The notes under the pieces: generated by a model
Told to the model about the DNA's origin: nothing
The model's input: only the letters and a program-made list of their open reading frames with translations
The model's database searches: none
NCBI GenBank assembly: GCA_905612535.1
Contig: CAJQSJ010000039.1
Coordinates: 1 to 34,964 of the forward strand
Source of the DNA: an uncultured Pelagibacteraceae bacterium
GTDB taxonomy: Bacteria; Pseudomonadota; Alphaproteobacteria; Pelagibacterales; Pelagibacteraceae
Length of the DNA stretch: 34,964 nt
Direction: 5' to 3'
Part shown: positions 27,672 through 34,964 of the stretch, piece after piece
Position numbering within the stretch: the stretch's first letter is position 1
How the letters are laid out: each line of letters starts with the position of its first letter
Translations under genes and position numbers: made by a program

Positions 27672-28025
27672 TTAAAAATTTGCTGGGAGCTTATGTTCCC
27701 CATTTTTTTTCAAAATTATTTGAAATACTTTTTTTACATCTTTTAAGTTTAAATAAGAATAAAGATGTGGAAATAGCAAACCATCTCTTGATTTTTCCCA
27801 GAAAAGATTGTCGAGCTTAGACGTGCTTACTTTTAACAAAATTAATTTATCTTTTTTATTATAAAAATATTTTTTTAATGTTGAAGATGCCTGTTTTTTA
27901 TTTGAAAAATGAATATAGCCATCAAGTTTATCTTTTTTTGATCCATTAAATTTTCTTTTATTTTTTGCTTTTACCCAATCTTTTGCATAGCAAATTTTGT
28001 ATATAAATTTTTTCATCTTTACCAA
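27672..28025 (-). CDS. DUF952 family protein
   Basis: IYKICYAKDWVKA...DGYIHFSNKKQASSTLKKYF...LFPHLY. Confidence 0.75.
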   Translation of the reverse strand: MVKMKKFIYKICYAKDWVKAKNKRKFNGSKKDKLDGYIHFSNKKQASSTLKKYFYNKKDKLILLKVSTSKLDNLFWEKSRDGLLFPHLYSYLNLKDVKKVFQIILKKNGEHKLPANF

Positions 28026-29917: not shown

Positions 29918-31105
29918 ATGAAAAAGCTTTTAGGGATCTTGGTTCTGGGTTTGTTGTGGTGCAATGTTGGGTTTGCAAGTGAAGCCGGTGGTATAAGAGA
30001 GCCCGGGAACAATACAAAATGTTTATATGTATTCGAAAAAGAAAATATATTTAAAAAAGAATTTTTACCAAATGTTAACAAGAAAAAAGGAGCTTTTATT
30101 ACTTATATAGGTTGTAATAAATATTATGATAATTGGGGTTGGTGGAATTCTTTTAACTCAGACATAGATGTAGCACATCAAAAAGCATACCAAGGATGTG
30201 TTGATCAGCAAATGAAGAAACACAATCTTACAGGTTGCCATTTATTTTCAATCGATGACGTAATTGTTTGGGGTAAAGATGCTGATTTTGTAACCGAAGT
30301 TGAAAGCAAAATTGAGAAAAAATTGACAAAAATTAATAGTAAAAAGAAAAAAGCAAGTGGTAGTTTTGTATATGAATTTCTTTTATGGGACGATAAAGTC
30401 TTCACAAAAAAAAGTCCAACAACTTTTAAAAAACTTACATTTAATAAAGAAGAAAACATCAGTAAAGTTATGAAGAAGGTACAACGCGGTAGCTCTAAAA
30501 AAAAGAAAAATTTTAAATCATTTAGTTTTATAGCGGAATACGAGAACAATATTACAATAGAATTGCTTATCGAACAAGATAAAGATAAAAAAGATTTTGA
30601 AAAAGCAGAACAGGAAGCATTATTATTTGCTATTATGTATGGTCAAATGCCTAATTTTTTAAAAACTTATAATAGAAAAATATATGTACATAATGACGTG
30701 GAATTTGATGATGGATTAGGAATATGGTGGGTAATGTATCAGAAAAAAGAATTCCATATTAACGCACCTAAAATAAACAAAAAACAAGCATGTGCAAAAA
30801 TTATAAGATATTCTAATTGTGCTGTAGTAATGGCTCATGAATTGGCACATGTTATTCAGCAACTTACTGGAGTGATCTCGCCATCAAAATGGAAAAAAGC
30901 AATAAAGTTAGATAAAAAAAAGTATTGTTCAAAGTATGCTAAGAAAAATTCAAAGGAAGATTTTGCAGAGTCGATCACATGTTGGATTGCCGCAAGACAT
31001 AAATCAGATAAAATTAAAAAAAGTGATCTTGCAAAAATTAATGAATTCATCCCAAACCGTCTTAAATTTTTTGATGAAATGAATTTTAATATGTATCCTT
31101 TATAA
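29918..31105 (+). CDS. Secreted protein with HExxH zinc-peptidase-like motif
   Basis: Signal peptide MKKLLGILVLGLLWCNVGFA; VVMAHELAHVIQQLTG then EDFAESITCWIA (possible gluzincin third ligand). Confidence 0.75.
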   Translation: MKKLLGILVLGLLWCNVGFASEAGGIREPGNNTKCLYVFEKENIFKKEFLPNVNKKKGAFITYIGCNKYYDNWGWWNSFNSDIDVAHQKAYQGCVDQQMKKHNLTGCHLFSIDDVIVWGKDADFVTEVESKIEKKLTKINSKKKKASGSFVYEFLLWDDKVFTKKSPTTFKKLTFNKEENISKVMKKVQRGSSKKKKNFKSFSFIAEYENNITIELLIEQDKDKKDFEKAEQEALLFAIMYGQMPNFLKTYNRKIYVHNDVEFDDGLGIWWVMYQKKEFHINAPKINKKQACAKIIRYSNCAVVMAHELAHVIQQLTGVISPSKWKKAIKLDKKKYCSKYAKKNSKEDFAESITCWIAARHKSDKIKKSDLAKINEFIPNRLKFFDEMNFNMYPL

Positions 31106-31535: not shown

Positions 31536-31970
31536 TTAACTAGTTATGAATTTTTGTAAGTCATTTATAAGTTCTTTTTGTTCTTCGATCATAATTTTTA
31601 ACACATCACGGATTGAAATGATTCCAACAATTTTTTTATTTTCTACCACTGGAAGGTGTCTAATTCTTTTTTCATTCATTATTTTCATACACTGATCAAT
31701 TTTATAATCTCTAGTAATGGTGATTAATTTTTTAGTCATAACTTCATCTAATAATGTATCTTTGCTGCTCTTACCTTTTAAAATAATTTTTCTTGCATAA
31801 TCTCTTTCTGAAAATATACCTATAGGAAAATCATTAGTATCAACGACAATGATTGCGCCTATATTCTTTTCTGACATTAAAATAAGCGCTTGTATTACAC
31901 TTTGGTTTTTTGAAATAGTCCAAATTTTTCTATTTCTATTTAGTTTTAAAAAATCTTCTAATCTAGTCAA
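31536..31970 (-). CDS. CBS-domain-pair protein
   Basis: QALILMSEKNIGAIIVVDTNDFPIGIFSERDYARKI...MKIMNEKRIRHLPVVENKKIVGIISIRDVLK. Confidence 0.92.
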   Translation of the reverse strand: MTRLEDFLKLNRNRKIWTISKNQSVIQALILMSEKNIGAIIVVDTNDFPIGIFSERDYARKIILKGKSSKDTLLDEVMTKKLITITRDYKIDQCMKIMNEKRIRHLPVVENKKIVGIISIRDVLKIMIEEQKELINDLQKFITS

Positions 31971-32126
31971 AATTAGTTACAATTTATTAATTATACCAGA
32001 TAAGTGTAAAGTGGTAATAATTTCATAAACGCACTCCTATTGTAATAAATTAATGCTAACATGTCAGGGGAAATTTTCAAAGAATTTATAAATTTTTATA
32101 GTTAAATTATTCTGTAATTTTTTAAC

Positions 32127-32154
32127 AAAAAAATCCCAGCCTGAAAAACAGGCT
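32127..32154 (-). terminator. Intrinsic terminator (minus strand)
   Basis: Minus strand AGCCTG-ttttt-CAGGCT-ggga-TTTTTTT: 6-bp perfect stem followed by a T7 tract. Confidence 0.65.
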
Positions 32155-32256
32155 ATAAAAATGTAGCTGATGGTAATTAGGCTATCATTTAATTTTATGA
32201 TATACTAATCTTCAATAAAGATTACACAAATTTTTCAGCTACATGCTGAACATCAG
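32127..32256 (-). ncRNA. Candidate structured RNA ending in an intrinsic terminator
   Basis: Perfect inverted repeats: TGTAGCTGA (32162-32170)/TCAGCTACA (32235-32243) enclosing TATCAT..ATGATA (32183-32202) and AATCTT..AAGATT (32207-32223), then the terminator. Confidence 0.4.
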
Positions 32257-32288
32257 AAAAAATATTAATTAAAAAAAGTGTCTAAATT

Positions 32289-32438
32289 ATGAAGTTTAGT
32301 TTGTTGTGTTTGCTGTGTTATTTGGGATTCCATCAACATGAGGTTGTAGATGTCAAGTTTGGTTTTGGCAAATCTGGAAAAATAATGACGGTTAAATGTA
32401 AAAATTGCGGTACCGTTGAAATTAAAACAGGTGATTAA
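32289..32438 (+). CDS. Small zinc-finger-like protein (49 aa)
   Basis: Manual translation: MKFSLLCLLCYLGFHQHEVVDVKFGFGKSGKIMTVKCKNCGTVEIKTGD*; CxxC near the N-terminus and CKNC near the C-terminus; 12 nt before the next CDS. Confidence 0.5.
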   Translation: MKFSLLCLLCYLGFHQHEVVDVKFGFGKSGKIMTVKCKNCGTVEIKTGD

Positions 32439-32450
32439 AAAAATTATTGA

Positions 32451-32972
32451 ATGAATATAGATGTAACAAAAAATATTGATATAAGAAGATATGTAAGTTG
32501 GAAAAAAGTAGTTAAAGGAAAACCAATACACATAAGGTTATATGAATTAATTTATTATGAGTTATTAATTGCTTGGATTGAAATAGATAAACCTTCAATT
32601 CGTTCAGCGATTTATGAGATGATGAATCGAAAAGAATTTAATGAAGATTTTGTTAAAGGACAGAAAATACAACAATTTATTGATGAAATTAAAGATAACC
32701 CATGCGATGACGGATCTGGTTATTATATTTCAAGTTCAAATGAGGTGCTGGCGAAAGAAGATATTAAAAACCTCTATAAAATTAAACACGCAATGAAAGA
32801 TAAGTTAAGCACAAAGAATATGATTAATAGATATAGATCAATATTTGTTTTTTGTAAAATATATGAATCTTGGGCATTATTAAAAAAAGATGAACAGATT
32901 CATGATATAACTAAAAAAGAAAGATTTGATGTGACACCGGACTTGCCTTTAAAAATTATTGGCGTAAATTAA
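32451..32972 (+). CDS. Hypothetical protein (173 aa)
   Basis: Long ORF in the accessory segment; no recognised motif. Confidence 0.6.
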   Translation: MNIDVTKNIDIRRYVSWKKVVKGKPIHIRLYELIYYELLIAWIEIDKPSIRSAIYEMMNRKEFNEDFVKGQKIQQFIDEIKDNPCDDGSGYYISSSNEVLAKEDIKNLYKIKHAMKDKLSTKNMINRYRSIFVFCKIYESWALLKKDEQIHDITKKERFDVTPDLPLKIIGVN

Positions 32973-34190: not shown

Positions 34191-34257
34191 TGGCGGAGAG
34201 AGTGGGATTCGAACCCACGATACGGTTTCCCGTATACACACTTTCCAAGCGTGCGCC
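34191..34257 (-). repeat. 3' fragment of tRNA-Ser(GGA) (att-like copy 3)
   Basis: Minus strand GGCGCACGCTTGGAAAGCGTGTGTATACGGGAAACCGTATCGTGGGTTCGAATCCCACTCTCTCCGCCA. The 5' part (GGAGATTTACCGAGGAATGTGAA) is tRNA-reminiscent but the acceptor pairs only 5 of 7. Confidence 0.85.
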
Positions 34258-34360
34258 TTCACATTCCTCGGTAAATCTCCAACACTTACCCTAAGAAATC
34301 TTCAAATAACATTATATTTTTAAAACAAGAATATTGCAAATATTTTACTTGTTATTCTCT

Positions 34361-34744: not shown

Positions 34745-34964
34745 CTATTTAATTAAAGGAATAGATTTAAGCTTATGTTTCCTAAAAACATGGTTCATAA
34801 ATTTATGCAATAGCTTCTTATTTCTATATTGAACTATAAATGAATCATGAACGACAAGGATTGGTATTCTCATACTAACCATTCTCTCAATAATACTTTC
34901 AGCTATACAACTATCCTTAAACTGTAATTTCGTACCCACTTTAGTAAATAAATAATGCTTAATA
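34745..34964 (-). CDS. Partial phage/plasmid-type protein C-terminus (runs off right edge)
   Basis: Frame open to the edge: IKHYLFTKVGTKLQFKDSCIAESIIERMVSMRIPILVVHDSFIVQYRNKKLLHKFMNHVF; the IPxLxVHDSFIV motif is typical of phage/plasmid replication-associated proteins (family recall only). Confidence 0.45.
   Translation of the reverse strand, partial: IKHYLFTKVGTKLQFKDSCIAESIIERMVSMRIPILVVHDSFIVQYRNKKLLHKFMNHVFRKHKLKSIPLIK

Follow-up and report, generated by a model that had tools for sequence, protein, structure and literature searches.

A conserved structured RNA, predicted to adopt either of two mutually exclusive folds, lies on the minus strand of the window (the whole 34,964-nt stretch of DNA analysed here, taken from contig 39 of a 0.76-Mb, 57%-complete MAG). 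On the sequence evidence, its family is absent from Rfam 15, has seven distinct members and is bistable in silico. The RNA is always found beside the same two plus-strand genes, encoding proteins of 49 and 173 aa, and therefore probably regulates these neighbours rather than the CBS-domain gene downstream. The comparison of homologous loci supports conservation of both the structure and its strand, competition between two helices, linkage to the two-gene operon and independence from the CBS gene. From these patterns we infer transcription of the RNA and its start site, an effect on the operon and a relevance of the switching.

Table 1 Features of the structured RNA and its surroundings in the window.
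Feature	Position	Strand	Basis and remarks
Structured RNA	32127-32256	minus	Seven-locus alignment; RNAalifold z -9.8; CM R2 match 76.7 bits
P1, 5' strand ATGTAGCTGA	32244-32235	minus	Contains b' GCTGA (32239-32235)
P1, 3' strand TCAGCTACAT	32170-32161	minus	Contains a' TCAGC; followed by TTTTT
Hairpin H, TTCAGC-ATGTA-GCTGAA	32250-32234	minus	c' TCAGC (32249-32245) with b' (32239-32235); excludes P1
P2, 5' strand UGUG	32228-32225	minus	UGCGG/GCGG in homologues; 27/28 cells paired
P2, 3' strand CAUA	32199-32196	minus	CCGUA/CCGC in homologues
P3 hairpin, AATCTT-TATTG-AAGATT	32223-32218 with 32212-32207	minus	Alignment; inside P2
Distal intrinsic terminator	32155-32127	minus	Stem 32155-32137; seven T at 32133-32127
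Candidate operon promoter, TTAGGC-18-TATACT	32177-32206	plus	Prediction from sequence and alignment
Weak -35-like TAGACA, possible RNA promoter	32279-32284	minus	Alignment; TTGACA in L075/L077
CBS-domain gene	31536-31970	minus	ORF; start 157 bp beyond the RNA terminator
P0001, 49-aa CxxC (zinc-ribbon-like) protein	32289-32438	plus	ORF; starts 33 bp from the RNA 5' side
173-aa helical protein, second operon gene	32451-32972	plus	ORF; homologues in linked loci

Identification of the RNA and its homologues

Folded alone, the minus strand was more stable than its shuffles (z = -3.35 for 130 nt and -3.12 for 143 nt), and the plus strand reached z -5.6 as a single sequence, so the strand had to be tested by other means. 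The window contains 32 perfect 9-bp inverted repeats at such spacing, nearly all of those printed being AT-rich. Since such repeats are not rare in an AT-rich window, the single sequence is only suggestive, and it is the comparative data that give the structure its significance. We place the 5' end of the RNA at ~32256-32262 and its 3' end at the distal T-run, for a length of ~100-130 nt.

A search with the 173-aa protein recovered the nearest homologue, L072, a record named 'uncultured Pelagibacteraceae bacterium', to which window positions 32113-32961, covering the RNA and both protein genes, align at 83.6%; the homology stops at 32113, just beyond the terminator. Further searches added L075, L076, L077, L078 and L083, giving seven distinct loci with the window, four of which are close to one another (L046 is the same DNA as L077, and L079-L082 are known loci under other handles). 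The homologous loci are from SAR11 (Pelagibacteraceae) genomes, most of them in genus g3, which belongs to the same family as the window MAG; the host of the window is accordingly taken to be a Pelagibacteraceae (SAR11) bacterium too. In all seven the layout was constant: the 49-aa gene and, after it, the 173-aa gene follow the RNA, which lies on the opposite strand.

Searches by other routes yielded no further members. When the RNA was compared by blastn with its own genome and those of 60 relatives, the only matches were short AT-rich stretches or coding sequence, and a single-sequence covariance model (CM) matched only the window among 397 family genomes, the best other hit (L059) having an E value of 0.014. 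With the seven-sequence model, the best sub-threshold hit (L148, E 0.03) was rejected as lying inside a coding sequence. Phage records showed no match by DNA or protein. Viral contigs contained no protein relative and no exact terminator or P2 motif, and none of their 37 gapped-pattern matches passed the CM. The Rfam search proposed in the initial annotation likewise found no known family, as neither the window nor the six homologous loci had a match above the gathering threshold in Rfam 15; the best sub-threshold match was psRNA14, at 22.5 bits against 60 required. 6S RNA (RF00013) was considered and rejected, with no CM match at the locus or in the rest of the MAG, which is 57% complete.

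Helices and strand

Structure statistics were obtained from the seven-sequence alignment A4 of the minus strand. All 56 of the 56 cells of the eight-pair P1 core were paired, and five of the eight pairs vary. P2, a conserved inner element of four pairs, carries a double change from C-G to U-A in the window. The covariation sought by the initial annotation is seen across the seven loci, with changes on both sides in three pairs in all. When one partner was slid by 1-3 columns, pairing fell to 35-45%. RNAalifold without an imposed structure returned P1 and P2, with z -9.8 on the minus strand versus -4.8 on the plus, and none of 1000 column shuffles scored as well. In the window alone, energy minimisation does not pick P2 (P(P2)=0.00).

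The helix changes keep pairing on the minus strand only, which identifies this strand as the RNA. Pairs retained as G-U on the minus strand become A·C on the plus strand in P1 (L072, L076), H (L083, L076) and P2 (window, L072, L083), and no change in the core helices showed the opposite pattern, kept on the plus strand and broken on the minus. Without the positions shared with the U-tract, about five independent changes favour the minus strand and none the plus, a count that treats changes shared by sister sequences as single events. Judged by these alignments, the conserved RNA structure on the minus strand is genuine.

The position and minus strand of the closing helix described in the initial annotation held up, while its length in the window is 10 bp (P1) rather than 9. 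One of the two 6-bp hairpins reported inside it, AATCTT/AAGATT, is present as P3, which is retained in L072 and shortened or lost in the other homologues; the second, TATCAT/ATGATA, is not kept (TACCGT/ATGAGA in L072). An additional pairing of CTGATG with CATCAG is not conserved in the seven-locus alignment and was dropped.

The intrinsic terminator seen earlier is borne out by the distal stem and its seven T. L072 has CTTG/CAAG in place of CCTG/CAGG there. Most homologues have a U-tract after P1, in several cases T5-T7 directly after the 3' strand, and a second T-tract ~25-45 nt further, at which a strong GC stem occurs in the window and L072 only. Conservation of the structure on a single strand, with a stem and U-tract at its end, fits an intrinsically terminated sRNA. 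This half of the earlier proposal, a cargo-encoded sRNA or an attenuator of the CBS gene, gained ground through the minus strand, the RNA's own terminator, the covarying structure, its rarity and its tie to the accessory gene pair; the attenuator half did not.

Competing folds

The segments c' (TCAGC), b' (GCTGA) and a' (TCAGC) are all conserved, and b' can pair with c' to form H or with a' to form P1, never both. A local hairpin sharing bases with the closing helix had been predicted, and it recurs as H in every locus, with 35/35 cells paired and only two one-sided changes; it thus appears conserved rather than covarying. In silico, P(H) was 0.81-0.99 before a' is transcribed. In constrained folds of the full RNA, P1 was favoured by 1.1-2.4 kcal/mol in six of the seven homologues, and H by 3.4 in L078. 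H and P1 are both conserved and close in energy, as alternative antiterminator and terminator helices would be. The folding models support a conserved competition in which switch-like folding would be possible, yet not as a CBS leader. Switching may be used by the RNA, or may simply follow from two helices sharing a segment.

Linked operon and candidate promoters

The plus-strand genes for the 49-aa and 173-aa proteins, the first of them starting 33 bp from the RNA, were absent from the initial annotation. P0001 shows a weak match to PF19769, below the cut-off, and its relatives occur in 75 of the 397 genomes of the family. The 173-aa protein belongs to no Pfam or NCBIfam family. Its first structure model was poor; a 14-sequence alignment raised the AF2 pLDDT to 83.7, and the resulting model matched no fold in PDB or BFVD. 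Full-length matches to it were found in 5/399 genomes of the genus, and the pair is rare. Across 48 loci, 36 relatives and 40 genus g3 genomes, CM R2 matched only two-protein loci, and among the 49-aa homologues that were read, those without the 173-aa gene had no RNA. Such strict linkage of RNA and operon is not proof of regulation.

The 49-aa CxxC family is frequent in genus g4 (L029-L057), where neither the RNA nor the 173-aa gene accompanies it. In addition, two unnamed SAR11 families of ~147-186 aa (L084-L093) may be distantly related to the 173-aa protein (E 7e-4 to 4e-6); they have no RNA upstream.

A plus-strand -10-like box occurs in all seven loci (TATACT at 32201-32206 in the window; TATAAT in L072 and L083; TATGAT in L075-L078), and -35-like boxes for the operon are arguable in all but L083. 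In the window and L072 the candidate minus-strand promoter is weak; its TAGACA may instead belong to the translation start region of P0001, and the conserved GACACTTT beside the start codon might be part of the plus-strand gene. If the plus -10 box and an RNA 5' end at ~32256 hold, the RNA and operon transcripts are predicted to overlap by ~45 nt. The overlap would stop ~33 nt short of the start codon and leave the ribosome-binding region uncovered.

Possible modes of action

We give about an even chance to the RNA being a cis-encoded, independently terminated antisense and/or transcriptional-interference regulator of the plus-strand operon. Its 5' segment would fold first into hairpin H; once a' is made, b' could switch from H to the long-range P1, which with its U-tract would act as the terminator, or just before it. 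With the operon promoter inside the RNA gene, the two promoters would face each other and the 5' ends overlap, and the bistable 5' region would be a possible control point. The predicted overlap and facing promoters, an arrangement like that of RnaG/icsA, are the reason why we favour the cis reading.

A somewhat unlikely alternative is a trans-acting sRNA or RNP partner of the 49-aa or 173-aa protein, co-inherited with the operon and using its fold to control its own ending or protein binding. The RNA's own terminator, conserved structure and strict co-occurrence with both proteins would suit such a partner, as would an overlap that stops short of the start codon. However, an overlapping layout on opposite strands is typical of cis regulators, and no orphan RNA copies were found in the genomes searched.

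It is unlikely that the conserved function is the switch itself, the choice between H and the terminator-forming P1 deciding the end of the RNA and repression of the operon. A duplex with the overlapping operon mRNA, an operon protein or a signal could then be the trigger. If true, the switch would set repression of a pair of accessory genes in the streamlined genomes of SAR11.

Conservation acting mainly on the plus strand, for the operon promoter and a 5' UTR hairpin (b-c), would make the minus-strand structure an inverted-repeat by-product. The TATNAT -10-like box and the b-c hairpin are indeed conserved in the plus leader, and the plus alignment, too, is more stable than its shuffles (z -4.8). 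However, P1 takes in sequence upstream of the plus promoter, the changes in P1, P2 and H break pairs on the plus strand while keeping them on the minus, the spacing inside P2 varies, unlike in a DNA operator, and the T-tracts make sense on the minus strand only, so we consider this reading quite improbable.

Neighbours downstream of the RNA

No credible minus-strand CDS ends at the site, as had been noted before, and the next minus-strand gene is that for the CBS protein. A riboswitch-like leader or attenuator of the next minus-strand gene, with H as antiterminator and P1 as terminator, is very improbable: the H/P1 competition and the U-tract after P1 are attenuator-like and a same-strand gene lies downstream in three of four contexts, but that gene differs among loci (CBS in the window, a 52-aa ORF in L072, a 56-aa ORF in L075-L078) and is convergent in L083, and the window has another, strong terminator further on. 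The switch-like CBS attenuator originally suggested is refuted. The alignment with L023, which carries the nearest full-length CBS homologue (82% aa), goes no further than 31992 in the window, and L023 has no RNA; CBS homologues L023-L027 align only within or just upstream of CBS, with no RNA upstream. CBS homologues without the RNA, together with the changing downstream neighbour, show that the RNA is not a CBS leader.

In L019, the CBS homologue is truncated to its C-terminal half (90% aa identity, residues 74-143) and joined to other sequence. The same two proteins, a GYIHFS...NLPANF protein, which we take to be DUF952-like, and a CBS-domain-like protein, occur near the RNA module in both L083 (reverse, 761-1104 and ~2170-2620) and the window (27672-28025 and 31536-31970), in differing order and orientation, as might be expected of a shuffled accessory region. 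On the plus strand, positions 29918-31105 encode a protein of 395 aa that is probably secreted, has a HELAH motif and shows a weak, sub-cut-off Peptidase_M91 match. At 34745-34963 on the minus strand, the C-terminal piece of a protein runs off the contig and matches phrog_4756 (E 9.7e-16); it adjoins a tRNA-Ser(GGA) at 34191-34280 (minus), and the two together may mark an integrated phage-like or mobile element.

Comparison with known systems

SAR11 genomes are very compact and have few known regulators, and a conserved, strand-specific, bistable RNA that accompanies a pair of accessory genes would add a rare example of RNA-based control in this abundant ocean group. For metatranscriptome searches, the seven-member alignment with its covariance model offers a starting point.

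Plasmid countertranscript RNAs and type I antitoxin RNAs are short, structured, intrinsically terminated and encoded opposite a small gene. The putative cis regulator described here resembles them as a short terminated RNA opposite a small accessory gene, with loop-loop complementarity available. Unlike type I antitoxin systems, it is accompanied by no toxin-like protein, the 49-aa product being CxxC/zinc-ribbon-like, and the ribosome-binding region would be uncovered.

Structured RNAs in intergenic regions of Pelagibacter were described by Meyer et al. 2009, including one regarded as a separate ncRNA and a hairpin frequently followed by poly-U, in the contexts of rhtB, pntA, rnhB1/DNA methylase and SAR11_0635/0636 (PMC2704228). 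The present RNA is likewise a structured RNA in a SAR11 intergenic region, and differs from those candidates in its context, in its shape as compared with those described and in its lack of an Rfam match.

In Shigella, the antisense promoter of the 450-nt RnaG is convergent with that of the regulated gene icsA, 120 nt apart, and RnaG triggers a terminator in the icsA leader (PMC5394118). Convergent promoters and overlapping 5' ends, which in RnaG/icsA go with hairpins and transcriptional interference, are predicted from sequence for the SAR11 RNA as well. Unlike in the RnaG system, the plus-strand leader has no terminator of its own for an antisense RNA to trigger, and the bistable fold and the terminator would instead reside in the putative SAR11 antisense RNA itself.
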